A stretch of DNA of 64,000 nucleotides from a virus. Position numbers and translations under genes: made by a program. The notes below the pieces were generated by a model. That model worked only from the letters and a program-made list of their open reading frames with translations, ran no database searches and was not told the origin of the DNA. Within the stretch, counting starts at the first letter, position 1, and every line of letters begins with the position of its first letter. Below are positions 27,001 through 54,700 of the stretch, in pieces. The stretch covers positions 62,001 to 126,000 of the IMG/VR virus record IMGVR_UViG_3300029998_000013. One strand, 5' to 3'.

Positions 27001-27997
27001 GATCTAAGTGTGGAATTGTATTTAAGATTTTTTGAGTAAATTCATCATTAAGTCTATCAACTGATTCAGATTCATGTGTATCAGTATGGGATAATACTTT
27101 TTCTCCCGAAGTTTTAATTTTATACTTTGGAGATCCTAAAGAATCAACAAAAGTATTAAATGATTTAAAATCAACATCTAATATATAATTAAATTCTTGA
27201 CTAATTACACTATCAAAATTAGTTAGAAACACAGCTGCATTATAAGCATCATGTTTAGCTCTAACACCGATACGTTGAATATCTCCCGATAATGAAGGAA
27301 TTACACGTTGTTCTTCAGCAAATCTAATTTTTGGATCAATAGAAGTTAAGTGCTTAAATAAATCTATTAAAACCTTTTTATATGTTTCATAATTTTCTAC
27401 TTGGAATGTATTTCCTACATAGAGATTAGCTGTGAATTTTCTATCAGTATAATAATCATCTTTATGTAAAACGTCTTGAGCAATTAAATAATCTACAACC
27501 GTTTGAAATAATGAATTCTTTAGATCTTGAATTCCTTGACTAATTTCAACGTTGCCTCTAACATAGGTATCACGATTGAGAGGGCCTCTATAGATCGCAT
27601 TTATTACAAGTTCATTAATCCTATTATGAAAATAAGATTTGGCAACTTGTAAATTAGTAAACATATCATCTACAATTGGAGATGTAAACTCATTAATTGC
27701 ATCAGTTCTAAACGCCGCAGTGGGTCTAGCAGCTAGATTTCTAAGTTTACGATTAGATGTTCTAGCTGTAACAATTTCTGGAGCTAATGCACTAAGCCGT
27801 TCCAAAATAGTTGTACTATTGATGTCTTTATATTTTTGTCTTAATTCTTCTATTGTCTCAGTCTCGGTAGTCTCAGGCCCGTAGAAAGCCTGAGCTGCTT
27901 GAAATAGCAGCCCAGGAATATCTGCGGGAGACTTTGCCATTAAGATCTGTCGCCCAAATTTCATGAGTACAGGTCTAGGACATTGTTGTTTACCCAT
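18059..27997 (-). CDS. Giant virion RNA polymerase polyprotein, 3312 aa
   Basis: One frame from ATG at 27997 to TAG at 18059-18061 when TGA is Trp, with more than ten TGA codons. The key motif is SDFDIDKAY: Asp2200, Asp2202 and Asp2204 (21386-21400), the Mg-binding triad of the double-psi beta-barrel RNA polymerases (YonO/crAss type; the phi14:2 virion enzyme is the studied relative). Upstream, MQSFMPMKN and VWQIWLQG lead into it. An earlier DG-rich segment, DTDGVNYQDGSSLITA (about 1080-1095), may be the second barrel (inference). Two zincin-like motifs lie in the same chain, HEYMH (1002-1006) and HEAVGHH (1656-1662). The polymerase is expected to be packaged and to transcribe early genes after entry. 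Confidence 0.9.
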
Positions 27998-34000: not shown

Positions 34001-37000
34001 CCATCAATTGTAATTGAATTAAATTCAGTTACTAATGGATTAAAAGCTGCATCATTTTGTTCTCTAATTTCACCATTTTCACGTTCAATTTGATCACTAA
34101 AGAGTTTACTAATTGTATCATAGTTAAGTTGTTCAGGAGGCAAAGAATCAATAATTGATTCTAAAACTTTAGCTACAAGTTCTTTCTTTTTAATTACTTG
34201 ATCACCAAATTGAATAACTCCATCTTCATCTTCCATAGTAAAAGCTTTTGTTCCCATTAATGTTTGTGACATTTGAGAATTAATAGCCTCTCATGGAAGG
34301 ACTCTATTACCAGTCTTTTCTTCAATTTGTTTAGCTTGTTGTAAGAATCTTTGAACCTTTGGAACAGAACTTTCTCCGTCTTTAGTATCAAATAAATCTT
34401 GAGTAATAGCTAGATTTAATAAATTTTTTCAAGTTTTTGCAGATTCGTCTATATAACCTGATGCTACATGTTCTCCTAATATAGGATTAAATTTTTGTTC
34501 AAGATTTAAATAAGCTTTATATCCTAAGTCTAAATATTGTCTTAAATCTTTATTTGCAACATAATCTGCAAATTCTTTATCAACTCGTTCCTTACTTAAT
34601 GACATTGTGCCTTTGTCTGGCAAATTATTATACGGAGTATTATATTTAGCTTCAACAAACGATTCTTTATCAATTGCAACAAAATCACTACTAATTGGTT
34701 TAGATAAGTATCATGCAGCTTCTCCAAAATAACGTTCAGCTTGATTACCCTCAAGAATATCTTGAACAATTAATTTATAACTATCGCGTTCTTGAGATAA
34801 TCTTTGTACTTCTTCTGAGTTTTCATCAACCTTTTCGCCAGCTTTTCCATTTAAGCTATTAATTTTAGAACTTAAATCTAAGATTTTTCCTCTATAAGAT
34901 TTATACTCTTCTAATATTAAGCCCTCTAAACCAGTTCCTGATGCTTTTTTATCAGCTCTTAATTGCTGAATTAATATATCATCACGAAGAGCTTTTCTTA
35001 CAACTTCTTCATCACTAGATCCTAAATCTTGAGAATTTAATAATCCATCAATAGATTCTACCATATTAATTGCTCTTCCAGCAATAATATCAGCAGAAGA
35101 TAAAGTGCCACTATCAGCTATATCAAATGTTCCATCGTCCTTGATTGGGCTAATGTAAGTATTACCCCATGAACTTTTATGTTCATTGATAATCTTAATA
35201 ATATCATCTTTTTTACCATTTGCAATTAAATCATAAATATCCTCTTTAGTATCAGTAGGCAATTGATGATGAATTCAAGGATCAATTCTTGATTGTTGAA
35301 ATTCAAACATAGATCCACCAATAAGACCACCAACAAAGTTAGCTAAATAATTTTCTAATCCAGCTTGACTAAAGACAGTACTAAAACCACCCATAGATCC
35401 TTGATTTTTAGTTAATCCAAGGTAAGATAAAATATCTACAACTCCTTTAGTAGCATCTAATACAGCTTGTTCTGTAACTTCTTCAACACCTTCTACTACT
35501 GAATTCTTTCACATAGCTTCGCCTAAAACGGCTGGTGTCATAAAAGTATTATGTAAAGCATCTTTGATTTTTCCGAATGTTCCAGCTAAGCTAGCTTTTC
35601 CAACAGAAGCGTCTTTAGCCACTTCTGTTAATCCATCTTTAACATCATCAAGAAATGGCAATATACTTTTTCTCATAAGAGCTTGGTTTGTACCAAGACT
35701 ATATCCTGTAGTTTTATCTAAGAATCAGTCACCCATTCTGTTATTGGCCATGATACCATACTGTCCTGCAGCTGCACTTAAGGCAGCAAAACCAGCAGTA
35801 CGACGATCATATCCTCCAGCTAGTGCTTGAGAATATACATCTGCTGACTGTAACATTGACATATAACCTAATGATAATGCTTTAGATAATTTAGATTGTG
35901 AATCCATTTCAGCAGCTAACTCAGGAATTTTATTAATCGCGTTTTGACGAATTTTTAGAAAATCGTCCACAGATAATTTATTATCAATTAAATCGCCAGT
36001 TAATTCATCATCAATAGTTTTTAAGAGTTCTTCACCTTTTGCTGAAATCTTATTCATTGCAGGCTTCTTAATAAGCATTGATAAACTAGCAGCTGCTCTT
36101 TGTTCATAAATCTGACTAAAGACTGAGCCAACCATTTGACTTAATTGCTCGTAATTAAAGAAAGAATTCGAACCTTGATCTGATACTGATTGTTGGTTAA
36201 ACTTAGACATATAACTTTCAGCTGCTGTTGCAGCATCATTTAAAGGCGTTTTTGTATCCCCCAATAACATTCCTTCAAATGCTTTATAAAATGTTGGAAG
36301 TATAGAACCTAATGAAACAGCAGCTTTTAATCCTCCATAAACTTCAGCAACACCTGCCACAGGAATAAAGAATGGAGCAATTTCAAAGATCATTTTCGCT
36401 GTTGTTCCCATAATAGATTTATCTCTACTATCCGAGTCTAAAAAGTCAAATTGATTTGCTAATGAGCCGTCTGTAGTTAATAAATCCATCGGACTTACAA
36501 CTTGGCGGCCATAAATTTCTCTATTACCTAATTTTTCTAAAAATAGATTTCCATTATCATCATATTTTCATTCACCTTTTTTATGATTGACCATGCGATT
36601 TGTCTCTGGATCTTTATGCATTCCATCCTCATCCCATTGACCATAAACTAATGTATCCCCAAAGAATTTAGTTAATATTCCTAAATCATTAGCAGATTCA
36701 TTACTCCATGTCTTAGTATCTGGATCATAAACCTTATTTTGTTGCGCAAGTTCTCTAACACTTAAAGGGTTCTCGTCAACACTATTAATACCACTCCTAC
36801 TATATAAGTATTTAAATGGATTAAAGTCTAACTTAAACTCTACTTCAGGTGTAAACGTTTTTGATTCTAACGGGCGAGTTATATCAAATGGACTATAAAC
36901 AGCTTTTCCTAGATTATCTAGGAAATTTTCATCTGTCATCTCTTTATAATGTGATGCTGCTTTATTAAAAGCCAAATCAAATCCTGATGAGTCAAACTGA

Positions 37001-37170
37001 CCATCAGGTGTTTTAAACTTATCCTGCACGAATTTACTTTGCAAATAATCCTCTTTCTTATAAAAAGAGGTATTATCTGGCGTAAGATCTGCAGACATAA
37101 GATCATAAGTTGTTGATTCTGGGTTATTTAATGAGGCAACAAATATATCATTAGGTTTTGTTATTTCCAT
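28009..37170 (-). CDS. Giant virion protein, 3053 aa, with embedded SF1 helicase
   Basis: One frame from ATG at 37170 to TAA at 28009-28011 when TGA is Trp. Residues ~150-600 have Gly/Ala-rich hydrophobic stretches (IAPFFIPVAGVAEVYGGLKA, FVGGLIGGSMF) typical of ejected internal virion proteins. In the middle is a superfamily-1 helicase: Walker A GNAGTGKTT (1746-1754), Walker B FIDEIS (Asp1868-Glu1869), motif III GDTLQ (1902-1906), LTIRAQN with Arg1934, VQGREFD (2054-2060) and YLSRAK (2084-2089). The UvrD/RecD-like order and spacing are kept. The N- and C-terminal thirds have no recognised domains. An ejected helicase could help genome entry or early transcription (inference). Confidence 0.88.
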
Positions 37171-37173
37171 ATA

Positions 37174-39024
37174 TTATTTATTTAAAAATGCTCCGCTAGT
37201 TGAATTAACAACTTTCTGATTAGAGTATAGATTATTTGTCTGAACTGTTCCCATAGTAGGGATCTGTTCCCTAGGCCCTTGTCCTACCATAGCATCTACG
37301 ATAGCAGCATAACCTTGTCTATATGGAATTGTGATCATTCCTTTATAATAATCTTCAACATGTCAAGATTTATCGGGAGTATGATTAATTGTTTTCTTTC
37401 CAACTGTTTCTACTCACACCTTTTTAAGCTGTGGCATAATACGTGTTTCTTCATCTCGTGATAATTTTGTAATAAATGAATTATTATCTGTTAATGTTGT
37501 GCCATCATTTGTATAGCCTCCCATTACTCAGAATGGCTTAACTTTAGAGTTGTCTCTAATAATTTTTACCTTATCTCCATCTTCATACTTTTCATCTATC
37601 TGCAAATTGTAATTATTACGTTTGAAGAAATCCATGGATTGTTGCGCAGACCAATGATCTTTATTTGACTCATATACTGCATAGATTTCTTTAAACTTGG
37701 CAAACTCCTTATAATCTGGGGCACCACTACTGTCCACAGGCATATATACTTTCGCACCATCTTGGCCATTATAAATTAAGTTATTAAATTCGGTTGGATC
37801 CACTAATTTATCACCAAAGTAAACTTTACTTGGTTCTAAGAATTGATTATATCCTGCATTTAGGACATTTTGTAAAGTTGTCATTCCAACACTTTGCCCA
37901 TCTGGAGTAATTACTGGAGATACTCCAGCAATAGATCCATTAAATAGAACTCCAAGTTTTGGATCATTAAAAGTAAAGTGACTTTGAGGAGACATTAATT
38001 TGTCCTTATGTAAAAGTTGAAATTGAGTTAATGATCTCATTCCAGATCCTCCAGAACCATCGCTCGATGCACCAGTAGATGTAACTGGAGTAACAGATGA
38101 TGATTGAGAAATATTTGTTTGAGTCATAATCATATCATAAATAAATTTACTTGGATTTGATTCTCCATTAAGTGCTGCTATTGCGGCTAATTTTTGTTGT
38201 TTATGTGGATCTAGAGTTCTTCAAATATAATTTAAAGCTACATCCGCATGAGCTCGTTCAGTCTTAACTCCAGAAGTTATTTTATTTAATTCCTGAATTC
38301 CGGCCATTTCAGCATAACTAGGTTTAACACCTGTAGCTCCTGCCATCTTTTGTGCTAACTGAGCTTTTGAAACAAATTTAGTATCTTCAGAAGATTCTTC
38401 TCCTAATGATGCTATAATAGCTCTAATATCATTATTAATCTTTTCTACTCCAGTAGAGTTTTGAGCGACGTCAAAAACATCTTCTCTACCAGTTAAATTT
38501 GGATTATAACGACGTTCACTTAATAACTCACTAACAGTTAAGGCTTGATATTTTCCTTTGCCTTTTGCAAAATCTTTAGTTGAGATGGTTTGAACTTGTC
38601 CACCATCATTTTTGACATACATCAATCCACTACTATTTACAGCCACTTCTCCTATTCCACCTGAACTTTCAGCAACAGAATTTGCTTTATCTCAAGCAAG
38701 TTTACTATTTCGAAGTTCATTAACCTTTCCAATCATTCTTAAAGCTAATGTTCGATTAGCTGAACTAGTATAAGGAGTATTTCCTTGAGATTTTTCCAAA
38801 TCAATTAATTCTGAAACAAGTGCATTAACATCATTAGTTAGTCCACCCTTTGTTAAGAGTTCTTTAAAAGTATCATCATCTAATATTGAAGCTGGTTCTT
38901 TTGAAGTAGTACTAGAATTCGTTTGAGAATTTGTAGATCCAAAAGAACTGGCAGGAGAGTGTATAATAGGGGTGAATGTTGCAAATCCACCCCCATTTTG
39001 AAATTTTTCTATATTTACTTTCAT
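37174..39024 (-). CDS. Virion protein, 616 aa, probable ejected cargo protein
   Basis: Continuous from ATG at 39024 to TAA at 37174-37176 with TGA as Trp (TGA at 38692, 38221, 37528 and others). It begins MKVNIEKFQNGG, one of several late proteins with a K-F-Q-x-GG motif near the start. A Ser/Thr/Asn-rich linker follows, then a helical core with KYQALTVSELLSERRYNP and ALNYIW. I remember this core as conserved in crAss-like phages, where a gene at this place encodes a cargo protein packed in the capsid or tail; that match cannot be verified here. It lies four bases upstream of the 3053-aa gene. Confidence 0.8.
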
Positions 39025-39025
39025 A

Positions 39026-42000
39026 TTATTTAAAGACCTTTATTAAAGATTTTTCTAGCATTTCATTATTATGTAAAATAGCTTTAAAGACTAAATCCAA
39101 GTCTTTCTCATTACTTCTTTTTGCATCCCTCATGTTATCGTAATCAATTTTATCTTGTAGTGTCATAGTTCCTCCAGATTTTCTAAAATACATTTGACTT
39201 TGTAAATTATATAATTTTAATTTATTAGCTTCAAGTTTTTTAGTTTGAGGTTCTAATTTTGCTGCAGTTCCCTTTTTGAGAGCATCTCAATTTTTAAAAT
39301 AATCCGATTCTTCTCATGGTGTAGCATAGTTTCCTCCAGCTAATTTAGCAGCTCCAACTGCATCAGTATATTGTTTATAATATGCTTGTTGTGTTTCAGG
39401 TGATGCTGCATCTGAGGCTTCCTTTATTAACTTTTGATAATTTTCATCATTATATAATGAGGAACTTTCTTCCATAGTGTTTCTCATTTTTTTAGGTAAA
39501 ATATTTCTTTCTAGTCCTGTTAATAAATTCGTTACTGCTGTATTTTGAGCTAATGCTTCATTAGAACTAACTAGTTGAATTTGCTTATTTACATTGGCAT
39601 CTATAGCTCTATTTTGTCCAGTAATTTGAGCATTTTGAGCATCTACTCGAGCATCTGCAGCAACTTGTTGATTTGTTAATTGATCTAAACGCTCTCTATC
39701 AGAATATTGACCTTTTGCAATCATTTCTGCACTTTTATTTGCTCCTTCTGATTGAATAGCAATAGAACGGTCTAAATCGCCTTGGGCTCCTGCCATATTT
39801 TGATATTTCCTCTGAAGCTGTGTAGCTTGTCCCTGAGCCATTGTTGTAAATGGAGTAGATTTTCTTGTATATGATTTAGATAATGTTGGAATTGTATAAC
39901 GACTTTCATTTGCGGCAGCTCTTTGTCTATTACCTACAATTTTATTAGTAGCAATTGTTGAGGCTGCCATTCCAAGATTTGATAAATCGGTTAAATCAAA
40001 TCCTTTAGCGGCTCCACTAATTGCTCCAAGAGCTTGATTAAGAAAACCTGGTTTTTGATTAACTTGCTTGGATCCTGTAATAGTAGTCATCATGCCCATT
40101 AAAGCTTTTTCTTGTGCTGTTAATTGACGTGCATATCCACCAGCTTGAAATTTTATAATTCCACCTCTAGCTTTTTTAGGAGCTCTTGTTCTAGTTTTTT
40201 TAACTTTTGAAGCAACTGGTACTTCAGGAACAGCAGGTGTTTCTGCTAATTTCAAGGCTGCTAATTCATCAGCTTTTGCTTTAGCAATTTTTGCTTCTTC
40301 GGTAGCTTTAGCTGTAGCAACTTGTTCAGTGACTTGTTTAGTTTTATTTCGAGCATCTCATCCAGATTGGATTCTGGCACGTCTAGCCTCAGTAATAGAT
40401 TCTACAATTTCGGGTTGATATTTCTTAATATGAGCTTTTGCTAATTCATAATCTCTAACATTAATAGAACGATCTTTATTAATTGGTTGAACATTCTTAG
40501 CTAATTTATAAGCCCCAGAAGTTTCACTAGGAATAAATTGAGATTTTAGAGTACTTGGGTCTAATAATTCATTAATTTGAGTTTCAGTTAATGTTTTATC
40601 TTTGCCAACTAATTTAATTACAGATTCTTTAAATTTCTTTGCAGTTTCTGAATTTGCTGCATCTACAGTTTCTTGTTTTCCAAATAATGATTTTTTAGCA
40701 AATTTTGGTATTTCAAGTTTTCCATTAATTGTAATTGGTTCTTCATCAAGAGTTAAAATAGTTTTATCAGACGTTGAAGCGGTTGGTACAGTTTGACGTT
40801 TAATTGCTCTAATACCCATGGCATCTTTTGCTCAAACATTCCCCATAGCACCTGTCATAAGTATATTTTTTAGATCAGATGGTTTTGTATATTCAATACC
40901 ATTTTCATGCCAATCCTTTGCAAAATTAACTCCAGAAATTACTCCTGGTGCCACTGTTCCAACTCTTAATAAGGTTTGAGCTGTTTTTGATTGAGTTAAG
41001 AATTTTAACTCACCTTTTGCAGCATCTCCCATTCCTTTAGCATAATGTCCTAAAGCTGCACTTCCTAAAATTGGTTTTGAAGAGTCCTTTAAAGTATTTA
41101 ATACTTTTAATCCTTCTTCAAACGCTGCTTTTTCTTCTTTTCCTTTTAATCCTCTTGATAGGGAAACATGTTCTGCTAATTCACCAGTAGTTTTAGCCCC
41201 ATATTTTTCTCCGAGACTTATTACTTTTTGTAGTGATTCTAATTCTGGTTCTGCAAGAGCTATTTTACTAGTTCTACTTGCTATTTTAGCTAAATCCAAT
41301 CCAGTTTCAGCTACTTTTCCAGCTTTTAGTAAAGCTTTTACTCCACCCAATCCAATTGCAGAAAGACCTAAAAATCCTAAATTTAATAGATGATTTCCTC
41401 AATTATCAATTTTACCATCTCTAGCATCCTTAACAAAATCAGCACCAAGTGTAACACCAGCTCCAAGTGCTCCATAAACAGGAATAAAAGAACCTACTGA
41501 TCCAGCAATTGATGCCACATCTAAAGCTTTATCGATTCCATCCTCTTCTTTTCAAGTTCCAGTAATATTTTTTACTTTTGAAGTAGGTGATGATGTATTT
41601 GAACTTGTCTGTGATTCTAATTGTTTTTTATACTCTGCAAAAGACATACCTTTCTGAGCCATAATTATACCACCTTCTTTATGTAACTGTGTTCCATTAA
41701 TTAAGGCATAATATTTAATTAGAGAATCATATACTTGTTCTTTAAGACCAGGGTTACTTAATAAAGCTGGATCATGAGTCAATGCTCATTTTAATGAGCC
41801 AGCTGCTTTAGTTCGATCATCACTAATTTCATTATCATGAATCGCCTGAGCAATTTCATTATAGTCTACTTTATAGTCATAAGAATTAGAATTATGTGTT
41901 CCTTGTTGTAAGGCTGGAAAAATGTTATTATAGTCACGAATTTTAGTGGCAGTATTTCCATATCCTAAAATATTTAGTTTAACAGGTCTCAAATGTTGAT

Positions 42001-43294
42001 CTAAATACATTCCTGTATTATTATCTCAATTTAACTTAAATTTATTTCCACCCTGTTCAACAACTAAACTTTTAGTAAAATCTCTACGTCCTAATTTATC
42101 CGTATTATATTTACTTCCATCATCTTCAGATCAACCATATACTTTAGCATCTGGAAGGTCAGTTTTGAGGTCCATTCCAATGTTATCCTTTTCATGTGGA
42201 TCTAAACCTCATTGCATATCTGCATTATTCTTATGATTTTGTGGATTATAAAAATGAAAACCTTCTAAATCATTATTTCATGAATATCCATATCCAGGAT
42301 GAAACCTGTCTTGAATACCATAATTAAAGAAATTATTGTTGGCTATCATTACATGTTTGCCTGCATCATTTTTAAGAATTTTAACCTGATGTGCTTTTAA
42401 AATATCGTCTAATCAAGGTGTTTTTTCATATCCCTGAGGTCTTCAATTTGCATCTTCAGTTGTATAACCCGCGTTGGTTAAAACATCCTTAGCAGGTCCA
42501 GTAATGCCTATATTATGGAAAAAATCACCAGATTGTTTAGTCTTTGTTGCAAGATTTTTTTCTTCATAAATTTTAGCCTGATCTTCATCAATTAGATAAT
42601 CATTTAAAACTCAACCTAATTTTGAAGAAGCTTGTTTAACTGATTCTCAGTCAGGAGTTCCAGAATTTAAAAGTTGATCTAAGTGTTTAACATCTTCTAG
42701 ATCACTATAATCAAATTTTCCTTTACTTTCAGCATAACTATTTAAATACTTTTTAACATTGCCTTTTGCAAGATCATATATCTTGGTTTTTCTTGCATCA
42801 TCAGTATTAAGTTTTAGTCACTCTGTTTCAAAATTATCTGGAGTAACATAAGCATCTTTACTAAATGTATAATCTCTTAGATTTTGAATTGAAATTTTTG
42901 GTAAGGACGAAACGATAGGAGTTGTGGGTGAGGAAGGCCCTTTCATATTTTTTAAGGCTTTACTATAAATAGCGGCAGCAACAGACATAGCATCATCATC
43001 TCCAGCAATTTTTAAATTTCCTGTAAGTCAATTACTATGAATTTCATCCGCACTACCTTTAAATTGACTATTGTTTGGTCCTGTGACTGTATATGTTTGC
43101 GCAACATCATCTGTATTAAAGGCTTTACCTCCATCAGATGTTGCAAAGTAATCACGAAACTTAGTTAAAGCATCGCGAACTTTTCTTTCGTCTTTACTTC
43201 TTAGCTGAAATGAACCTAGTTGCTTATTTAGTTCCTCGTCTAAAGCATTGCGGTCTATTGTGTCACCAGCTTTTAATTTTTTTATTAACGCCAT
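39026..43294 (-). CDS. Large virion protein, 1422 aa, helix-rich with hydrophobic segments
   Basis: ATG at 43294 to TAA at 39026-39028; the region 42011-43028 was read codon by codon and holds only TGA (about ten), no TAA or TAG. The N-terminal half is polar and rich in Trp encoded by TGA. A middle zone has hydrophobic Gly-rich stretches (SVGSFIPVYGALGAGVTLGA, LGFLGLSAIGLGG) that may insert in membranes. The last third is Gln/Ala-rich and helical, and contains GGIIKFQAGG, the shared K-F-Q-x-GG motif. A related GGIIMAQKG occurs earlier. No enzyme motif is seen; an ejected internal protein forming a channel is an inference. A terminator precedes it. Confidence 0.83.
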
Positions 43295-43318
43295 ATGTTT
43301 ATATTATTGTATGTTTAT

Positions 43319-43356
43319 TCAAAAAAGGGGAAACAGGTCATACTGCTTCCCCTTTA
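43319..43356 (-). terminator. Intrinsic terminator (leftward) upstream of the giant genes
   Basis: Read on the - strand, AAAGGGGAAGCAG pairs with CTGTTTCCCCTTT around a short loop and is followed by a run of T. It lies between the 92-aa gene (stop 43377) and the ATG of the 1422-aa gene at 43294. No promoter was recognised after it, so it probably acts as an attenuator lowering expression of the giant genes. Confidence 0.8.
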
Positions 43357-43376
43357 AGGTAGGCCTCATTATCTGC

Positions 43377-43655
43377 CTAGTTTGTTCTTACCAATTTACC
43401 ACCTTTTCTTTGATAAGTTGGTTGTTGAGGTTGTTCTTGGGCACCTTGTAACAATTGCATAATCATCTGTGCTAACATTGCTGCTGCCTCTGGACCAACT
43501 TGTTGAATGATTTGTTGTGCCATTTGAGCTACTTGTTCTTCAGGTCCTCCTGCTGCAGGTGCTCCACCTTGTTCTCCACCTTGTTGTTCTGGTGCTGGTG
43601 CACCTTGTTCGGGGGCTGGGGCAGCTCCACCTTCTTGAAATCTTTTAATTTTCAT
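43377..43655 (-). CDS. Small Gln/Gly/Pro-rich virion protein, 92 aa
   Basis: It begins MKIKRFQEGG, the K-[FY]-Q-x-GG motif shared with neighbouring virion proteins, followed by a low-complexity stretch of Ala, Pro, Gln, Glu and Gly. An amphipathic helix (about residues 38-72, VAQMAQQIIQQVGPEAAAML and on) and a second RKGGK near the C-terminus follow. It ends in TAG. A conserved small internal or scaffold-like protein is possible. No TGA is present. Confidence 0.75.
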   Translation of the reverse strand: MKIKRFQEGGAAPAPEQGAPAPEQQGGEQGGAPAAGGPEEQVAQMAQQIIQQVGPEAAAMLAQMIMQLLQGAQEQPQQPTYQRKGGKLVRTN

Positions 43656-43662
43656 TTTTTAA

Positions 43663-44589
43663 TTAATTTTTGGATTTTACAAATTCAGGCTCATTTGTTT
43701 CTTGAGTCTGTAGAAATTTAAATACTCGTTTGCCTAAAGCTTTATAATCATTATCATTCTGTGTCGAATATGCTTTCTTAGCAAACCTAATTAAGGTTCT
43801 AGTATTTGCTCTACTAAATATTCTTTCTCCTCCATCAAGTTCCATTTGGGATTCTCCGTTAGAGTCTAACACAAGCATTTTGTCTTTATTTATCTGACTT
43901 TCAGGAGAGAGATCTAACTCATCTCCTGGCTTTATTCCGGAGTTTACATTTACTTCTAATACAAAAGAGACATTCATTTCTGACATTGGTTCTTCTGAAT
44001 TTGGAACTCCTTGATGAACTGATATAACTTCTAATTCATCATTTATAAAAATTATATCTAAAGGAATAAGAGTATCTTTCATTCAAAAAGAAACTTCATC
44101 TGGTTCATCAAACACAAATAACATTCCTTTATTATTATCTAAGGATTCTCTATTTGATAATCCAATTTCTTTTTCTTCTTCTGTTTTAGCAATTTCTACA
44201 GTAAAAGTTTTATCGCCAATAGCAATCTTAACAAGTTTACTATCAACTTCTATTTCATGTTGTTTAGCAACTTGGTTGTCCTCTTCTTTCTGTATATTAG
44301 TTAATTCATTATTAAACGAATTAATTTTTGTTTGAAGATCTTGAACTGTTTTACTATACTTAGCTTTAATATCTATTAAACTTTCTATAGTTTTAATAGG
44401 AGATTGTGATAAATTAGATGCTTTTCTTAATGCATTAATTTGCTTTTGTAATTGTTTATATTTATCAAGAACTAAAGTAATTCCAATTTCTTGTTGTTGT
44501 TCTTCTGTAGTGACATCTTTAGTTAAATCATTAAACTTAGTTTTTAATTCTTCTAATGACGTATTATTGAAACAAGTTATTTGTGTCAT
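43663..44589 (-). CDS. DUF192-family protein fused to a coiled coil, 308 aa
   Basis: Read through TGA at 44083-44085 the frame runs from ATG at 44589 to TAA. Residues ~1-110 are a coiled coil. Residues ~115-235 match the DUF192 family: KGMLFVFDEPDEVSFWMKDT, then PLDIIFINDELEVISVHQG and VLEVN. The conserved Trp of FWMxxT is residue 169 and is encoded by TGA, one of the clearest pieces of evidence for recoding. The C-terminal ~70 residues are charged (RTLIRFAKKAYSTQ). DUF192 has no firm biochemical function. Its presence among virion genes suggests a structural or accessory role. Confidence 0.82.
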
Positions 44590-44610
44590 ATAAATAGTTT
44601 AAATTGTAAG

Positions 44611-44871
44611 TTAATTTTGACATTGTAAAAACATCTTTAAAATATTAAGAATTTCATCATCTTCATTATAAATTCTTCTTTGTCTATGAAGATATTCAGC
44701 AATTGGTTTTTGATGTTCAATCACATTTCTTCCTGCATGTCCACTATCTCCACCACGACCTTTAATAGGTGTTGGTAAGGCTAAATAATCTAAATATCCA
44801 TTACTAGCTATTGCTAATGTCTTTTTTTGTTTGGATAAATATCCGTCTGATGTTATTCCTAATGTAAACAT
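44611..44871 (-). CDS. Small virion-operon protein, 86 aa
   Basis: MFTLGITSDGYL at the start and IKGRGGDSGHAGRN in the middle give a Gly/Asp/His-rich loop. The C-terminus is basic and helical. The start codon overlaps the stop of the fibre gene upstream (TAATG). The sequence resembles short repeats at the start of some phage tail-associated proteins, but the family is not identified. Confidence 0.65.
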   Translation of the reverse strand: MFTLGITSDGYLSKQKKTLAIASNGYLDYLALPTPIKGRGGDSGHAGRNVIEHQKPIAEYLHRQRRIYNEDDEILNILKMFLQCQN

Positions 44872-46094
44872 TATTGACGACTAACTATAGATAATGTTTC
44901 ACCATTACCTTCGATTTTTAACTCAATATCTCCAGCAGTTCTAACTGATGGTGTAATAGTCATAGGATTATCCTTATCAAGACCTTGTATTTTATATAAC
45001 TCAGTTAATTTTTCTTGTAAAATACTGAGGATTCCTCCCATAGTATTTGGATCTGTATAAGTTCCACTTATAGATTCTCAGATTGTATCCGCTAAAGCAA
45101 CATAATCTACACCTCCACTAGAGGCTAAATTTAGTTTACTTCCCATTGTCCCAGTTTTATTAAAATCAGTAGCTATACTGTTTCATACATTAGCTGCTAA
45201 ACTTTCTGGGGATAATTCTGTAAAAGGAGTAATATCAGCAGAAATATTAGCTGATGCTTTTATGTTAGATTCTAAGGATCCAATTGCATTAATAGCAATA
45301 ACTAAATTTGCAATAGCTTTAATATTAGCAGTTAATGCTCCAATTCCTTGTATATTAGAAGTAATATTTCCAGCAATAGAAGCTCTTCCTATTAAGGAAG
45401 ACAATCCATGCATTGTTACAGAAATATTTTCTGTATAAATGCCAGTTCATAAATTTGCACTAAATATTTGTCCATATCCGCTAAGATTAGCAGCAGCCTC
45501 AATAATACCTGAAAGAACAGGATCAGTAAAAAATTCTCCTAATCCACTTATAGTAGATTCGAGTTTAGCTATTGCAGTAATGTCAGAACTTAGTAATCCT
45601 TGTCCATCAATAGTAGAAATAACATTAGCAATTGCTTTTATGTTAATATTAGTAAATCGACCTAAACCATTAAGATGGGATGAACTAATTCCAGCTTTTG
45701 CAAGTATATTAATATTATTGAATAATCCTATTCCACTAATTTTATCTGTAGAAACAACATCTGCAGGAGCTTGAATTGCTGTATTTGAATCAAATTGTCC
45801 TATTCCATTTATTAATGTAGTTTCAATTCTTCTACCAGCAGCTGCATAAGCATTAATGAAATTACCAGTCGCTAAGATTGATGACGTTGCTGCCATCCCT
45901 CCTTCGCGAATTGGTAAATTTCATGATGTTGGAGTTAAATTTCCAATTGGAACCCCATAATAAATACTCATGCCTCCTTCACCAACATATCTATTTAACA
46001 TGCGAGATAGTTGAGAAGTTCTCATCTCACTTGTATATCCAACTGAATTATATGGTTCAGCGAAACGTAATGATATATTTTGAAGAAGTCCCAT
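44871..46094 (-). CDS. Tail fibre or tail appendage protein with repeats, 407 aa
   Basis: ATG at 46094 to TAA at 44871-44873; TGA is Trp at 45447, 45183 and elsewhere. Residues ~60-300 are imperfect repeats of about 25-35 residues with a Gly-x-Gly turn followed by Ile/Ala-rich strands (for example GIGLFNNINILAKAG, GLGRFTNINIKAIAN, GIGALTANIKAIAN), suggesting a beta-helical fibre shaft. The end, NSIATDFNKTGTMGSKLN and WESISGTY, resembles the C-terminal modules of phage fibre or hub proteins. It lies directly downstream of two other fibre genes. Confidence 0.75.
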
Positions 46095-46097
46095 GTT

Positions 46098-48194
46098 TTA
46101 TGATCAAGCAAAATCTACATAACCCATAAATGCTGTTCCTGAAGCAGTAACTGCACCTGAATGATGTAAGAACATTAAACATGCACCATCTCTAACACGT
46201 GGTAATGATGGTAATTGATTCATTAAATCTCTTTCAGCAGCTACAAACGCTGTAGTTAGAGGAATCGAAGCTAGTTGTTTACAGACAATTAAATCTACAG
46301 CAGCATCAGCAGTTGCTTGAGCTGCAGAAAATTGAAATAAATCAGCTTTTTGTATACCATAATCTCCTGCAGCCAAAGGAATAAAAGGACCATATTTACC
46401 AGCACCAACTCCTGAATGAGGAATATGTGATACGACGTCTGAAGCAGTCATATTAATAGTAGCACCATTTCATTTATTATCAACATTTGATTGATTGGTA
46501 TAACTAATTACTGATGTTGCAGCATTAGCTCCATTACTTAAAGCATTATCCATTACGTAATACATTCTTACTCCACCACCATAATTTGCAGTAGTTTCAG
46601 CATCACATCTTGGTATTAAAGGAGTACAAATAACATGACTTATACGACCATTAAATGATGCATCGGGCGTAAAAGCTAAAGTATAATTACTTGTTCCACA
46701 AACAATAATTTCTTCATATGTTCCATCAGTACTTCTAGAAGCACTTGCAGTTCCTCCACCTAATGATACAGCAACTGTGCCAGCACTTCTATTAGCAATA
46801 GTAAAAGTTACTCGATATGGACATTTTGCAACTACTGGTAATAGAGCCTGTTCTAAAGTAGTTGATGCACTTGCTGTACGTTCAACATCATTTGTTCTAT
46901 ATGCCCATCCTGAATTAGCAGTCCATCCTGTAGCATTACCAGCAAAGTTTCCATTATATAGAACTCCATCATAATTTGCCCATCTTATATCGTCCCAATA
47001 AACACTAAATCCTTGTGCTTTATTATTAACTACTTTCATCCCAATAGAAATAACAGTATCTTTATCTGTTGCTGTTACACCTGATACATCAAGACGAACT
47101 CTTGTTCAAGTGTTAGCTGTAAGAGCAGGAAGAGCAACATCTTGAGATGATGCTAAAGAAGCACTTTCGTCTGTACAAAAAGCTATATCTCCTGCATTTA
47201 AATTAATAGTAGGTCTTACTCAAGCATATATATATTTAGCTTGTACATAATTATAACTTGTAGACGCTAAAGCAACTACTCTACTTCCAACAATACCTGT
47301 TGTAAAAGTTGCATTATTTACTGTTAGTTTAACACAATAAAGATTACTTGTATTAGCGCCAGTAACTCCTTCAGTTGTTTTAAGAACTAAAGAGTTGGCT
47401 GTATTTGCTGGAGTTTGTTCATTTCATCCAACTTGACAATTATGTACTATGTTTCCTGTATCTGAATCAGATCCATGTAAGCATTGAATTGCTGCAGAAT
47501 CAGTTTTTATTCTTGGATATACTCCTAAGACATCTACTATTGATAATACAGATGGTACACCTGTTGCAGCATTAGTTCATGCCCCAAAATTTATCATATG
47601 TTTTGTATCTCCATTTGGAGTATCTCCTCCGTGTCACATTGCACCTTCAGTTAAATCATTATACGGAATAAATGATCCATATGCTGGTTGAACAGAAACT
47701 AAATCAACTGTTCCTGCAAAAGTTGCATCTGGTGTAAATGTTATATTTTTATCAGTTGATCCACACACTAAAATTTCTCTAAATGTTCCTGCAGCTGATC
47801 TTGCTGTTCCAGCTGTTCCACCTAGTGAAACTGTAATTGATCCAGCAGTTCGAGTAAGAACATAAGTAACCATATAAGACTGCCCTCTTGTCATTCTTAT
47901 AGTTTGATAAAGAGTGGATAGATCAGCATTAGCTGTTCTAGTCATTATATGTGATGCAGCAGTGTATGCTCAGTTTGATGTCGTAACTATTCATGGTTGT
48001 TGTGATGTAACAAAATCATAATTTGTTACTAAATTCCCATGTAAATATTGTGCAGGATTTCCATTTCCCTGTTGCAAGTCATATCAATTACCAGCTACAG
48101 CAGTACCTCCTGCATATAATTTTATAAAATCTTGTCTCCAAGTTTTTCCTGCGGATACTTCACTTATGAAGTTATCTATACTTGTAAATCCCAT
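46098..48194 (-). CDS. Tail fibre / receptor-binding protein with carbohydrate-binding-like modules, 698 aa
   Basis: ATG at 48194 to TAA at 46098-46100 with TGA as Trp. After an N-terminal attachment region there are at least two related beta-sandwich modules of the CBM4/9 type. One has SYMVTYVLTRTAG, VSLGGTAGTARSA and FTPDATFAGTVD; the other FAGNATGWTANSGW, VSLGGGTASASR and FTPDASFNGRI. A possible third module lies between them, ending SVYWDDIRW. The C-terminal ~110 residues (LPRVRDGACLMFLH to FAW) resemble the C-terminus of the next fibre gene upstream. A cell-surface glycan-binding role is inferred. Confidence 0.8.
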
Positions 48195-48206
48195 TGTTTA
48201 TTTTTA

Positions 48207-49058
48207 TTAATTTCATATAAATGTAAATTCTCCCAGAACTGGCACAGCCGCGATTCCTCCTGATGGCATTACTAATAAATTAAGATATGCACCATCATAA
48301 ATTCTTGGAAGTGATGCTTTATCTTTGATAAAGTCATATTCTGCCCATGCAGTAGCTTCTCTTGTCATTAGAGTAGCTATAGGTCTTACTAATACTAAAG
48401 TAGCTAGACCACCATTTGGAGAAAGAAATGTAATTGATTGTATACTTTTTATTCCTAAATCTCCAGCAACTAATGGAATGAAAGCTTGATAATTATTTAA
48501 GCCTGCAGTATTTGAATTAACAATAGTTCCAATAAATGTAGAATTATTAGTAATTAAAATCTGACTAGTTCTTGCCTCATCCTCTGTGTTTGTATATTTT
48601 ATCTGAAATCTTGCTCCTCCTACATAAGGGTTAGTTGCTACAAGAAAGGCTTGCACACCAACGCCATCTGTATATCTTGGAAGAGAGGTTGTACTATTAT
48701 CAAGTAGTTGTTCGTCTGTGTTATCCATATCTATAAGTGGATAATACATTAAATAATCACAAAGAAGAAATGGGGCGGGAGCCATTACAGCATTGCTAGA
48801 ATATAACATTGCTTTATGTAAATATTTTGTTTTAGGACTAACCGCTCCCCCATGATATATTCCTTTTTTGTATCAATTACTTGGAATAGTAGCTTCTTTT
48901 TCTCCTCCTACATAATAGTTAGGAGCGGGATTACCAGTGGTCATAGATAAATCTACTCAGAATCCTGCTCCTGAGCTAATAGCAGGAACTTTTCTAATAT
49001 AGGATAATATATTTTGTCCACTCTCGTATCCAGATACTACTAAATCTTTAATACTCAT
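48207..49058 (-). CDS. Tail fibre-like protein, 283 aa
   Basis: ATG at 49058 to TAA at 48207-48209; TGA is Trp at 48213, 48873 and 48957. The N-terminus, MSIKDLVVSGYESGQNILSY, and a GNPAPNYYVGG segment parallel the start of the larger fibre gene (GNGNPAQYLHG). The C-terminus, SLPRIYDGAYLNLLVMPSGG to FTFIW, parallels its C-terminal domain. Both end in TGA-x-TAA. It therefore looks like a short paralogue without the carbohydrate-binding modules, perhaps the adaptor to which the longer fibre attaches. Confidence 0.76.
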
Positions 49059-49198
49059 TATTTTATATTTATGCCTCCATTAGACGTTACTTTGCTACTT
49101 ATTTCAGCGATAATAGGCGCATTACAAGTGCAAGCTTTAATCATTGTTTTATCAGGTAATATAATTACTGATAATTTACATTTTGAACACTTATACAT
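49058..49198 (-). CDS. Mini zinc-ribbon protein in the fibre cluster, 46 aa
   Basis: Read on the - strand, ATG at 49196-49198 overlaps the TAA of the upstream fibre-like gene and the frame ends in TAA overlapping the next ATG. The product starts MYKCSKCKLSVI and contains ACTC, giving a CxxC/CxC zinc-ribbon pattern. Perfect TAATG overlaps on both sides argue that it is real, although it is too short for most gene callers. An open frame on the opposite strand here looks like a shadow. Confidence 0.68.
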   Translation of the reverse strand: MYKCSKCKLSVIILPDKTMIKACTCNAPIIAEISSKVTSNGGINIK

Positions 49199-49608
49199 TA
49201 GTCTTCAGTTATTACAAGTGAACCTATTGCAAATTGTGGCTGAACAAGTTGGGCAATAGCTAATTGATCATTTAATGCTCCAGAATAGAGAATTTGTCCA
49301 GGACCGCTGGCTGTAGTTACAATAGCTACATGTGTTATTGGACTTCCAGGTGTTGCTCCACAAATATCAAATTGAATCTGTGCAGCATTTGAAAATGAAG
49401 ATCCTCCATCCGTCCAACCTGTAGCTTTAACAATTTGTTTGCGAACATAGTTAGTGTATGTAGTTTCATTTGTAATAGCAGTTCCTGCTTCATCTGGGTT
49501 TGCTGTATAGAGCGCGACATATAAATTTGCACTCGCTCTCCAAGAAGGATCTGTTCCTTGTAAAATTGCTTTGAGAACATCATTCTCAGTTAGATTACTT
49601 TTACTCAT
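49198..49608 (-). CDS. Phage tail fibre-like protein, 136 aa
   Basis: A 136-aa protein typical of a small tail-fibre family: WRASANLYVALYTANPDEAG, then NETTYTNYVRKQ, GGSSFSNAAQIQFD, THVAIVTTASGPGQILYSGA and a C-terminal FAIGSLVITED. The order of these segments is characteristic of phage proteins annotated as tail fibre. It has no internal TGA. It precedes the fibre cluster in transcription order. Confidence 0.82.
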   Translation of the reverse strand: MSKSNLTENDVLKAILQGTDPSWRASANLYVALYTANPDEAGTAITNETTYTNYVRKQIVKATGWTDGGSSFSNAAQIQFDICGATPGSPITHVAIVTTASGPGQILYSGALNDQLAIAQLVQPQFAIGSLVITED

Positions 49609-49617
49609 TTTAATATT

Positions 49618-50031
49618 TTATTTATTTATTTTATTTGCATCTACTTTAGTTATAAAGCCTTTACTATCTCTATGAACTATAAATTCTCAATTAGTTTTTT
49701 CCTCTTTATTAAGAGTTTTTAATTCATCTAATTTATTTTCTATTAATTTACCAAGATTCACAATAGAACTTGGTAATGCACTTTTTACAGTTGCTATTTC
49801 TCTTATAATTTCTGATGCATCAAATTGTGTTTCTGAATCAGTTTTTGATAAAGAGATTAAAATCTCTTTTAAGACATTAATGATTTCTTTATGTCTTTTG
49901 TCCTCTAAGAGCTTTTGAAAATCATCTTCCGAATCAGAAGAATCCTTTAAAGCATCTAAAAGTTCTTTGTGTCTTTTATCCTCTAAAAGTTTATTAAAAT
50001 CTTCTTCTTCGGAATGATTTTCTAATTCCAT
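49618..50031 (-). CDS. Helical protein with an internal duplication, 137 aa
   Basis: ATG at 50031 to TAA at 49618-49620, reading TGA at 49687 as Trp (C-terminus WEFIVHRDSKGFITKVD). Two near copies of a 20-residue helix, DFNKLLEDKRHKELLDALKD and DFQKLLEDKRHKEIINVLKE, lie in tandem in the first half, followed by an amphipathic coiled coil. It may be an oligomeric linker or chaperone for the tail. The function is unknown. Confidence 0.7.
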
Positions 50032-50255
50032 AATTCTTTAATTAAATTATTTAATTCTTTTAATTCCTTTTTAATTTTATCCTGTGTTGCTTTTGCTGTA
50101 ACAGGATCATTACTATCAACTAATTCCTTGGTTGTTAAGAAGTCAAGTTTTAAGGTAGGTTTACTTTTTTGAATCTCATTACTTAATTGTTCCTTTGTAT
50201 CCTCGATTTGAAGCTTAGTCGCAGTAATTTGATTTTGAATTTCTAATTTTTCCAT
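50022..50255 (-). CDS. Coiled-coil protein, 77 aa
   Basis: An entirely helical, Lys/Glu/Gln-rich protein from ATG at 50255 to TAG at 50022-50024. It overlaps its neighbours at both ends by about 10 bases. Small coiled-coil proteins of this kind often assist tail or head assembly, but no family is recognised. Confidence 0.68.
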   Translation of the reverse strand: MEKLEIQNQITATKLQIEDTKEQLSNEIQKSKPTLKLDFLTTKELVDSNDPVTAKATQDKIKKELKELNNLIKELWN

Positions 50256-50776
50256 ACTTTTAATATATTTGAAATATTATAATTAATGGATCCTCCTTTA
50301 TGAAAGGTGGGATAAAATTTCTTATAATTTTCTGTAAATTGCTTTGCTAATTTAGGTTTTTCCATAATAGTGTCACCATGAGCAATAGCATTCTTTAAGC
50401 CATCTCATTTTTTAAATGCAGGATTGGTAAAATCAACTAAATTTCCATTAACTTCTTGAACTTGTGGATAAACGACAGCTTGTCCATTATATCCAGCTCA
50501 AGCTATTTTATGTGTTGAGTATCCATTAGGATCCGCTCAATTTGGCATAGTTAATCTATTTGGATCTTTAAGTCTATTAATAAAATTAACGTCTTTTTTA
50601 TTAATTCTATCAATAAGTATTTTAAGTTCTCCTCCTTTTTGATGCTTACTGAATCCTTTAGATTTAAATCTTTTAGCCAAAGCTTTTCTACTTGGTGTAC
50701 AAGTAGCTTTAGTCATTGGAGTACAATATCCTTTATGTTTAGGATTTACAGCTGTTTTGATTCAATCTTTTGCCAT
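50243..50776 (-). CDS. TGA-rich virion-operon protein, 177 aa
   Basis: Invisible in the standard code: four TGA codons (MAKDW, MPNW, KIAW, FKKW) split it into pieces. Read with TGA as Trp it runs from ATG at 50776 to TAG at 50243-50245, with TAATG and overlap junctions at its ends. The N-terminus, NPKHKGYCTPMTKATCTPS, followed by ALAKRFKSKGF, looks conserved among crAss-like phages (from memory). It also holds KHQKGGEL and FHKGGSI, variants of the shared Q-x-GG motif. Function is unknown. Confidence 0.75.
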
Positions 50777-51768
50777 TATTCAATTTCTTCTAAAAGTCCA
50801 GTTCTATCATCAGTATTTTCAAGAATTTCCTCAGTTAAGAATTTTCCACATTTAATAGCTAATTCATCAGAAGGATTTTCTTGATATTGTTTGAAATATT
50901 CTTCAAGTTGATTCGTAGTATCCTTTGCAAAAATAATTTCATTTGCTTCAATTTCTGCATGTTGAGTAATATCCCCACCTTCATTATATGTAATGACAGG
51001 AATACCTTTATCAGTCACTTGCTCAGCTATTTCTTCTGGAAGATTATTTTTTCTTGCATGTAAGGCTCCTTCTGGAATTACATTAAGTTTACCACCATCT
51101 TGAAACTTTTTAACATCAAGTGATTTATTTCTACTACTTATTAATTTTCGAATATCATCAAGTTTAGCCCCATCTTTTGCACTTAACATTTTAGTTTTAT
51201 AATTTCCCATTAATCCACTCATAAGTTGATTTTGGTTATTACTTGCTATATCCTGTGCATAAATAGCTCCAGCTTGAGCTCGATCATTTGCAGCACTTTC
51301 AAGTGCGCCAGCATTAGAATTAAATTCATCAGCTGCTTGGGTTTGTTTATTAACTAATTTATTTTTACCAAATCAAGTTGATATTAAAGAACCCTTTTTT
51401 CCAGCATTTGTACTTGTTTGCTTCTGATATGCATTTAATGTTAATCCTGAAGTTTGTTGTTTTGCAGTTGTTTTACCAAAAGATCTATTTGCAAAGTCTA
51501 ATGCTTTAATTCCTAATCCAACTGCTGGATTAAACATCGTGGCTGCATCTCCTGCAGCAGATAATACATCATCCGCTCCAGTAGTTAATTCAGCTTGTGG
51601 AATAAAGGCTTTTCCAAGATCCATTGCCATAGAACCAATGATGCCAGCTGGAGAAATTCCTTTCCCCAGGGCACCAGCAGCTTTATTTTGAAATCCCATG
51701 AATGTTTGTAAACCTATTGCAGTTAATCCACCAGCAGGAGTTTGATATTTTTTTATTAATTTAGGCAT
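50776..51768 (-). CDS. Virion protein, 330 aa, with Q-x-GG motifs
   Basis: ATG at 51768 to TAA at 50776-50778 with a TGA-encoded Trp at 51373. It begins MPKLIKKYQTPAGG and contains a second motif VKKFQDGG near residue 215. The N-terminal part is Gly/Ala-rich (GISPAGIIGSMAMDLGKA). The C-terminal third has HARKNNLP, KGIPVITYNEGG and QHAEIEANEIIF, a pattern I recall from conserved crAss-like virion proteins. It overlaps the large tail gene upstream. A structural or internal virion role is likely. Confidence 0.76.
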
Positions 51769-54700
51769 AGCTTAATGTAAATAATGTTTTAATTACGCTA
51801 ATTAGAGCTAACTCAGTTCCTGAATAATTAATTCTAATTTTAACATATTTGTCTCTTGTCTTCATTTCTTTTAATGGAGTATATTTTAAAACTCCTCCAC
51901 TTAAATAAGCATACTTAAATGAAAGTGGTTTAATTTGTACATCTCATGAATCTTCTACATAATGCATATTTCCTCTAATTCGACCATACTTTGGATTACC
52001 TATATTTAATCCCCTTTGTTTATATTTAACTAAGTATTCATTTGTTCTATAGTCTTTAACCAATTGAACCATATAATCACTTAATACCATATCACTGGGT
52101 AGATCTTCATCAAAATTTCGACTTAGGTCAATATAAGGTAGTTTTTTAATCTCTGGATGAAGTATCAAATATGTTAAATATTTATCTTCAAGTGTTCGAA
52201 TCTCAGGATGAGTATTCATATAATCAATATATGCTGTACCAAGTACAGGACTTGTATTTGTAACATCATTTAATGCATATACTAAGGCTTTATTATCAAC
52301 TCACTCATAACCTTCACCAACAATACTATAAGAAAAACTTTCAGGCGATACCTTATTAGATATAATTTTTATATTATCAAAAATTTTCTGAATACCTGGA
52401 ACACCAATAACTACAAATTCAAAACTGAATTTCTCTTGTTCTCCGTACCATTTGGTTGGATATATTAATTGTTGACCATCAATAATTCCAGCAAAGCCAT
52501 GCTTTCAAACGCGACTTTTCTTATCAGGTTTAAGAAATGCTAATCCATCTAATAATATGATATCTGTTTTATTGGAAAAACCATAAGCAGCTAAACTAAC
52601 CCCTAAAATATAGGAACAGTTTTTTATCATATTATTGTCAAAGGTATAAAAAATATTGTTAATATTTTCTGAAAATCCTGGAATTCATGAATATCTCGTT
52701 ACAAACTTTTCTAAGATCTCGTTAAAACAAATACTCCATTCTGTAAGTCCATTAATAAATGTAAAAATAACATCTTGCTTATTTGCATTATAATGTGTTT
52801 TAATATTTCTAAATCCAATAATTGGATACTTAGCAGATTCCGTTAAATCAATATTCTCATTTAGAAACTTCTGCAATTTTAAATCTGAAATTACTTCAAA
52901 TTTTTGTCCATTGGTTCTCCATAATTTCTTAGCATTGGTATCAAAGCCATAGATATAATTAGGAGTTTTAATTATAGAATCTTTTCAAGTAGAGCCAAAA
53001 GTTTCGGACAAGACTTTTGGATTCTTTGGAAGAACATTTTCAGTATTAATGTAGACATTTTCTCCGTTTGCGTTAGTCATTAGTGCTCGTTCATTAATAG
53101 GAATTATAACAACCCCATTTTCCATTACGCAGACTAATGATCCAAATCAATCTACTAATTTAACAATAGCGCCGTAATTCATTGTATAATCTTGATAATG
53201 TCCACTTCTAAATACTTGATATCCATTACGATATAAGTCTGTAATATGAACATCGGAGTATGCAATTCTATTATAGAATTTTGTTTTTAAGTATTGTGAT
53301 TCAGGTAATTCAAAATTATATTTATCAGAAGTAGTTTTACTAATTCCTGAATTTATTACATTTGATTCTGGTAATGAATTATATCTATTACCTTTATCAA
53401 GAGGAAAGAAACTTCTTTTTCTTCTATGCAAAGCTTCCTCTTCAGCTCTTGAAAAGTCAACATCTCTTAAAGATAGATTTACATTACTAAAGATTTTAAA
53501 AGTAACTCAATGTCCTAATGGGACAGCATTAACATCAGGAGAACTAATTTTACTGCATCCAAAAGTTCCAACCTTATCAGAATATTTAGCATAATTACTA
53601 TCTCCAGGTTCTAATATTTTAGTACCTTTTAATGTATATAAAGGAATAAGTCTTTTATAATTAATCAAACCTGTACCAGCAGTATCTTCAGCTGTTGTAG
53701 CCTCTAAATGACCTGTTGGAACTATTGCATTTGAGGCAGATTCGCCTGTTATTCCAGCATTAGTATCAGTAATCCCAGGAGTAGAAGTTAAGTCCTTATA
53801 GTACTTAGTAACAACATGGTAATTTTTATGTCAGCCTAACTTATCTAATATTTTAGTATTAGTAGGCATTTGAGGATCAATAAAATTCCAGTTCATTCTA
53901 TGTGTATAAGTACAAATATAACAATCTCCTCTATATAAACTTGAAGTTATATAATTTTCAGAAGCTGTTATATTTTTTCAAGCAAAACGATCTGAGATTG
54001 CATTGAAAGGAGTTGCATCATCATAACGAATTTTAAAATAATCATTTCAGTACTTATTAAAGTCATAATTACTTTGATAAATATTATAATAATGACAATC
54101 TAATAATGATTGAGAAACTCCTAAATAAGTATTAAACTCTCCTCTAATTAAGTATGGAGATTTAGATAATAAATTTGCATCTGCTTGCGAGTCAGTTGTA
54201 GTATAATCATCGACACTTCCATACTTAATATCCTCAGCTTTATATGCTACATAGGGATCTCCAGCTTTTGAAGAGAAGTAATCAATACCATTTGTTGTTA
54301 AGTCAATACCAGGTTCTACTAAAGTTACTCTAGTAAGAATATCTGGAGTTGATTCTACTTCAGGACTTTTGACTATATCTTTTAAAGTAAAGCGATAATA
54401 TTTTGTATTGGTTTTATCAGTACTTAATTGATCAAAAACTTTACTTCCTTGATACTTAGACAAACGTAATTTATAATTAGATGAGTTAAAGAAATTATTT
54501 AATATTGAAGTTCGAACACTTGCCTCAGGACAAAGTGCGGCTTTAGTTTCTACATATGTTGGAGAATTTAATAAAAAAGCATAACTGCCAATTGATAAAG
54601 TATTTTTATCAGATAGAGGAGTTAAAAAAGATTGGGCAAAATACTGTCCATTACTATTTTTAAGAACTGGAATATTTCCATTTTTAGTTTTAGCAATTGC

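Follow-up and report, generated by a model that had tools for sequence, protein, structure and literature searches.

A short N-terminal peptide shared by unrelated late proteins of zeta-type crAss-like phages: a candidate sorting signal for virion cargo

Introduction

In phage T4, about ten N-terminal residues, the capsid-targeting sequence (CTS), are enough for IPIII or a foreign protein to enter the head (PMC9026906), and new cargo can be added by fusion to this tag (PMC9026906, PMC7411985). Among crAss-like phages, the genes that follow the muzzle gene of crAss001 encode packaged cargo (gp45, gp46 and the RNA polymerase (RNAP) subunits); mass spectrometry has detected gp45 in virions, where parts of it bind the portal and the tail barrel, and both cargo sets and ejection mechanisms may differ among crAss-like groups (PMC10172136). 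One of these groups, zeta, is described as suppressing TGA or TAG (PMC12386605). Polyvalent proteins, large and multidomain, are injected together with phage DNA (PMC5512222).

Here we examine a short motif ending in two glycines, not reported in the literature that we searched, which recurs in the late proteins of a phage of this kind. If a tag allowed cargo to be predicted from sequence alone, the way in which crAss-like phages choose and load their unusually large protein cargo would become directly testable; the tag would also supply a functional hypothesis for many hypothetical proteins and, possibly, a means of putting selected proteins into the particles of gut phages.

Results

The window analysed is the whole 64,000-nucleotide stretch at bases 62001–126000 of the 178,320-base virus record IMGVR_UViG_3300029998_000013. 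Its minus-strand late block reads open only if TGA is translated as Trp (code 4), and its gene order, running from the muzzle through small cargo-type genes to very long RNAP-type proteins (Table 1), matches that of crAss-like phages. On the basis of the muzzle and RNAP block, the recoding and the Crassvirales gene order, the phage fits the zeta crAss-like phages, a clade name that we infer from comparison with the described group (PMC12386605). Thirty related loci were retrieved through the N-terminus of the RNAP-type protein, which is itself without the motif, and relatives were found with three codes (TGA as Trp, TAG as Gln, and standard). The genomes compared are uncultivated, several of them fragmentary, with mechanical gene calls. 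A contig of a Prevotella MAG (L172; JAJQAR010000012.1) is a crAss-like fragment with TAG recoding whose 616-type gene is tagged (MKIIPKFQQGG), a binning that hints at a host.

Table 1. Positions of the late proteins, motif copies and HExxH sequences discussed in the text (window coordinates unless stated otherwise)
Feature	Position	Strand	Remarks
Muzzle protein	51761..56161	-	Pfam crAss_MUZ match
330-aa C1-like protein	50776..51768	-	directly after muzzle; conserved C-terminal domain
N-terminal tag variant IKKYQTPAGG, residues 5-14, of 330-aa protein	51727..51756	-	
Internal copy VKKFQDGG, residues 219-226, of 330-aa protein	51091..51114	-	just ahead of conserved NVIPEGALHARKNN domain
177-aa protein	50243..50776	-	aligned with gp45-type HIKPENKGKFT module
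KHQKGG, residues 44-49, of 177-aa protein	50630..50647	-	module-end GG, not N-terminal tag
FHKGG, residues 158-162, of 177-aa protein	50291..50305	-	second GG, near C-terminus
DUF192 (COG1430) protein	43663..44589	-	between tagged genes
92-aa Ala/Pro/Gln-rich protein	43377..43655	-	motif at both ends; family 17/17 tagged
N-terminal tag IKRFQEGG, residues 3-10, of 92-aa protein	43626..43649	-	strict copy KRFQEGG
C-terminal motif PTYQRKGGKL, residues 79-88, of 92-aa protein	43392..43421	-	
1422-aa late protein	39026..43294	-	code 4
Degenerate N-terminal tag IKKLKAGD, residues 4-11, of 1422-aa protein	43262..43285	-	protein starts MALIKKLKAGD
GGIIMAQKGM, residues 541-550, of 1422-aa protein	41645..41674	-	MAQKGM 545-550; conserved as GG-I-x-K-A-Q-x-G
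Internal copy IIKFQAGG, residues 1046-1053, of 1422-aa protein	40136..40159	-	strict IKFQAGG 1047-1053
C-terminal YFRKSGGTMT, residues 1369-1378, of 1422-aa protein	39161..39190	-	GG invariant, 14 orthologues
616-aa late protein	37174..39024	-	code 4; family 17/17 tagged
N-terminal tag IEKFQNGG, residues 5-12, of 616-aa protein	38989..39012	-	EKFQNGG at residues 6-12
3053-aa first RNAP-type virion protein	28009..37170	-	synteny; context
HExxH (VHEFLH, KHEYMH) inside 1299-aa and 3312-aa RNAP-type proteins	14158-18057 and 18059-27997		
HExxH in 603-aa protein, outside window	genome 161817-163628	+	

The initial annotation had proposed a motif, K-[FYH]-Q-x-GG, in at least six late proteins. Every sequence that it named is present when the block is translated with TGA as Trp, the weaker FHKGG and MAQKGM included; strict copies occur in five proteins, and an additional, degenerate copy at the N-terminus of the 1422-aa protein had been overlooked. 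The recurrence exceeds chance: within the 13-gene block at 37174–51768, [KR][FYH]Q.{1,3}GG is matched six times, in five proteins, with 0.025 matches expected (2000 shuffles, at most 1 match in any), and the whole 178-kb genome contains seven matches, with 0.2 expected (200 shuffles, at most 2). An equal frequency among early proteins, named beforehand as the outcome that would speak against the idea, was tested for and not seen, six of the seven genome matches lying in the late block and the seventh, RHQNPGGG, at genome position 57109 in an early gene. Across 15 genomes the strict pattern is matched 33 times (3.1 expected) and the reversed pattern four times; the shuffles and reversed-pattern controls thus rule out chance or composition as the cause. 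Nor is this a general bacterial motif: in about 257 Gb of bacterial and archaeal genomes, strict M-K-x-I-x-K-[FYLH]-Q-x-G-G gave five matches against about six by chance (a rough hand estimate), the one genuine match being a crAss-like contig inside a Prevotella bin. A DNA scan of viral contigs for strict MKxKFQxGG, with eight matches against seven for a swapped control, is uninformative as a census because the spacing from Met to tag varies.

Comparison among relatives sharpens the motif to an N-terminal tag of about eight residues, [IV]-x-[KR]-[FLY]-Q-x-G-G. Four consecutive gene families, located between the muzzle and the virion RNA polymerase and unrelated elsewhere in sequence, start with this same peptide in about 20 zeta-crAss-like phages. 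Among 55 aligned N-termini, [IV] is present in 51, [KR] in 50, [FLY] in 54, Q in 46 and the second G in 49; the first G was required by the alignment, and the [IV] position lay outside the selection criteria. The initiator Met precedes the tag at a variable distance of up to about 18 residues. When the first 30 residues of 2318 gene calls from 15 genomes were scored with a tag matrix, 44 N-termini reached a score of 14 bits, a level attained by 0.25 shuffled ones; the count of 44 is partly circular because the matrix derives from the same families. Four of the 44 lie outside the four source families, and a distant crass-like contig that had no part in the matrix (G007) has N-termini with RKFQEGG and VQKFQNGG, at 19.1 and 21.5 bits. 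The codons for Lys, Gln, Gly, Phe and Leu in the tag vary freely – Gln is CAA, CAG or, in code-15 phages, the reassigned TAG, and in one tag the x position is a TGA-encoded Trp – which argues that selection acts on the peptide. The second Gly is replaced in some natural copies by Asp, Ser, Thr, Asn or Ala.

In the 616-aa family (tags include MKINIKKLQAGG and MKYKKLQQGG), G11 is invariant in 17 of 17 sequences, one of seven such columns, G12 is nearly so, and a conserved [FY]-x-[FY]-[TQ]-P lies past the GG. The AlphaFold model of the window protein predicts that the first 45 residues are disordered, with pLDDT about 28 over most of them (28 for residues 1–30), followed by a moderately confident folded body; Foldseek with this model found no PDB relative at E 0.001 or better. 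MT835470 rows were left out of the alignments used for structure prediction.

Relatives of the 1422-aa protein have a full tag in place of its degenerate IKKLKAGD (e.g. MSQAIRKYQTGG, MAQIKKLQKGGG), and the family also includes MSQVRKYDGGG and MAQVIRKYQEGG; the 1422-type protein of three lineages (L072, L073, L075) has no tag. Fourteen orthologues, at 14–35% identity to the window protein, leave M1, the tag residue K6 and G1374-G1375 as sole invariants. Conservation after the GG of the tag is poor, and Q547 and G549 of the internal GG-I-x-K-A-Q-x-G junction are nearly invariant. Profile comparison of either the 616-aa or the 1422-aa family with crAss001 gp45 and gp46 gave no significant match.

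The family of the small 92-aa protein starts with tags such as MRIKRFQEGG and MAYIKKFQEGG and has the C-terminal consensus P-[VT]-[YF]-x-[KR]-G-G-[KRV]-[LI]; its only invariants are Q7, G9, G10, P79 and G85, the last two in the C-terminal motif. What we take to be a faint echo of encapsulin cargo-loading peptides is the C-terminal G-G-[KRV]-[LI]-x-R. Each of the 18 cassette-bearing zeta-type records searched has one copy of the neighbouring DUF192 gene, and four other crAss-like phages have none; to name its product as a candidate partner of the tag is speculative.

The C1-like family of the 330-aa protein has the N-terminal tag in about nine of 14 orthologues (e.g. MHNIKKYQWGG, MYKKIKKFQSGG), and an internal copy preceding the conserved NVIPEGALHARKNN domain is frequent. 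The AlphaFold model of the 330-aa protein is poor (pLDDT 43), with folding limited to the C-terminal domain and both motif copies in low-confidence regions; in the comparison with gp45, its HMM search reached the DAC15 homologue at E 0.11. In the 177-aa protein, KHQKGG aligns with KHQQGG at the end of a relative's HIKPENKGKFT...ARKWNH module, and FHKGG with L-K-E-G-G in one relative (GG-x-I-N-Y). Between muzzle and RNAP at another locus, a 72-aa gene (L022:2720-2938, plus strand) is a free-standing gp45 module, 70% identical over 54 residues to crAss001 gp45 371–424. This gene suggests that C1, one fused protein in crAss001, is several genes in zeta phages. The motif copies fall into two classes: the N-terminal tag, and GG junctions, internal or C-terminal, that lie ahead of conserved modules. 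These are related patterns whose roles possibly differ. Some of the copies named in the initial annotation (that of the 177-aa protein and the internal ones) belong to the second class, as GG module boundaries of C1-type cargo.

The tag is confined almost wholly to late virion or cargo-type genes. It is absent from the N-terminus of the 3053-aa RNAP-type protein and of all its relatives compared. Single-domain glucosaminidases, both in these phages and in other crAss-like ones, are untagged too, but the tag is present on a LysM protein and on a glucosaminidase protein of 981 aa. A lysis or export signal for peptidoglycan hydrolases is ruled out by the untagged single-domain enzymes. A weak counterexample from the early side is a protein of genome G000, outside the window (45647-46537, plus strand), which starts MELLYKYQNGN and has a radical-SAM-like CxxxCxxC region near its N-terminus; its G008 relative starts MKDLLYKYQNGN.

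Several further loci deserve mention. Two adjoining proteins of contig G007 (L095:7204-8493 and L095:6876-7202, minus strand) start MSLIY...KFQ[EN]GG; one has a peptidoglycan-binding domain, and the larger ends FYRNGGLLYKKR, resembling the 92-aa family. On the same contig a 401-aa gene that starts MKKKFQGGG (L094:16610-17815, minus strand) lies directly before the presumed major capsid gene; its product, with DETELFD repeated at both ends, is possibly a tagged scaffold. Genome G016 has three large, nearly adjacent proteins distant from the RNAP block (L130:11082-16953, plus strand), with the starts MKKLIKKYQWG, MMKLIPRFKTG and MTKLIPRYQHG; these are possible tagged effectors. An ART-PolyVal protein of G007 (Pfam E 1.7e-16) has a weak N-terminal AKYQTG; because this scores 6 bits and other ART-PolyVal matches fall in untagged proteins, the link to polyvalent proteins is weak, and we set it aside as support for injected effectors.

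Discussion

We suggest that the tag is a short linear sorting or docking signal for virion cargo that works like the T4 CTS, and we put the probability of this reading at about 0.52. The position of the genes, their late block, the predicted disorder, the sharing of the peptide by unrelated chains and the gp45 module together lead us to it. The initial annotation had offered a tag recognised by a common partner as one of two explanations, and this is the reading best supported by the late cargo-type genes, protein-level conservation, predicted disorder and otherwise unrelated chains, with the partner itself, like sorting to the particle and ejection of the tagged proteins, still putative. An extended, predicted disordered N-terminal peptide would be recognised by a single virion or procapsid component, with the portal or inner capsid or the tail-barrel lumen as candidate receptor sites; unrelated late proteins would thereby be collected into the particle as cargo and ejected later, and the [FY]-x-[KR]-G-G-x-L copies at C-termini or between modules could be extra docking points for the same or a similar surface. 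Our search found no published virion proteomics of any zeta-crAss phage, so that packaging of these exact proteins is deduced from synteny together with a single shared module. Although they are cargo in crAss001, the RNAP proteins are untagged, and thus the tag is not required for all cargo; crAss-like phages other than zeta package cargo without it.

A bolder form, which we put forward tentatively, is a modular cargo code. A single receptor inside the particle would read one peptide, wherever it stands (N-terminus, C-terminus or between domains), which would allow any late protein to be recruited; the code would cover the peptidoglycan-acting proteins and the tiny double-ended adaptor tagged at each end. 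If true, it would amount to a transferable address label for loading proteins into abundant gut viruses.

A doubtful alternative is that the tag serves ejection or positioning, holding cargo N-termini in the lumen of the tail barrel or muzzle for exit N-terminus first, as proposed for crAss001 gp45. Residues 214–245 of gp45 line the barrel, and six copies of an unassigned 14-residue cargo segment are found at the muzzle ring-joining domain of crAss001 (PMC10172136); an N-terminal tag that is predicted to be disordered would suit such a place, but the motif also occurs internally, C-terminally and at each end of the 92-aa protein, the different tagged proteins are probably too numerous for all of them to fit along a single tube, and the start of gp45 itself, MAKKKIKRRGK, has no tag.

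The other explanation in the initial annotation, a GG-type cleavage site, found no support. Proteolytic maturation, in which a protease cuts after GG and removes a leader, as with adenovirus-type or double-glycine leader proteases, strikes us as decidedly unlikely, even though GG is the most conserved pair of the tag, the sequence after it is poorly conserved in the 1422-aa family and the prohead protease of T4 takes off the tags of that phage (PMC7411985). The second Gly can be dispensed with (D, S, N, T or A in natural tags), the 616-aa family has conserved residues past the GG, and cutting at internal and C-terminal copies would split proteins, which argues against GG cleavage. Neither Peptidase_C39 (PF03412), the mark of double-glycine leader processing, nor Peptidase_S78 was found in 13 records, while the positive controls matched; searches of 13 records for Peptidase_C48 (PF02902), the kind of cysteine protease (C5/C48) that adenain/Ulp1-type GG-X sites would call for, and for Peptidase_S77 gave no match either, but in both of these the controls were silent as well. 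As for the nearby zincins proposed as candidate proteases, HExxH sequences are present (Table 1), though nothing links them to the motif; phage N4 packages its virion RNAP, which includes a metallopeptidase domain too, in unprocessed form (PMC5512222).

We consider it very unlikely that the tag docks an assembly chaperone, a non-virion factor such as the DUF192 protein that would keep cargo soluble until packaging. DUF192 lies in the same cassette and follows its distribution (18 of 18 cassette-bearing records, none of four other crAss-like phages), but this presence is confounded with a single clade, and tagged contig G007 is without DUF192, albeit as just a 43-kb fragment. Finally, a nucleic-acid signal near the start codon (for late translation or recoding), or mere A-rich composition at gene starts, which in these phages are indeed A-rich and Lys/Ile-rich, can be dismissed, as the K, Q, G, F and L codons vary, TAG-encoded Gln included, copies lie far inside proteins, and composition-preserving shuffles give 0.25 against 44.

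Comparison with known systems

A sorting signal of this kind has partial counterparts elsewhere. Encapsulin cargo-loading peptides are likewise short and disordered and load cargo into capsid-like shells (PMC8049743), a resemblance only. Another is crAss001 C1 (gp45), which occupies the same position after the muzzle, shares a module with zeta phages (70% identity, gp45 371–424) and also has [FY]-x-x-G-G-x junctions such as NAFAEGGGLS and SAYGGPL; unlike the zeta proteins, it is without the N-terminal [IV]xK[FLY]QxGG tag, and in zeta phages the functions of C1 seem to be divided among several proteins with the tag. The CTS of T4 IPI, IPII, IPIII and Alt is, like the zeta tag, a short N-terminal peptide common to unrelated proteins that are internal to the head or ejected (PMC9026906, PMC7411985), the zeta proteins being presumptively head-internal. 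The T4 CTS is cut by the gp21 prohead protease, with L-I-E in its cleavage logo (PMC9026906), whereas the zeta tag has the core K-[FLY]-Q-x-G-G, no related sequence with a gp21 site and no conserved Glu before a cut, and differs also in its C-terminal and internal copies and in that no S78 prohead protease was found in 13 records. Because the sequence differs, membership of the T4 CTS family fails; as a working analogue, the T4 CTS is nonetheless the closest.
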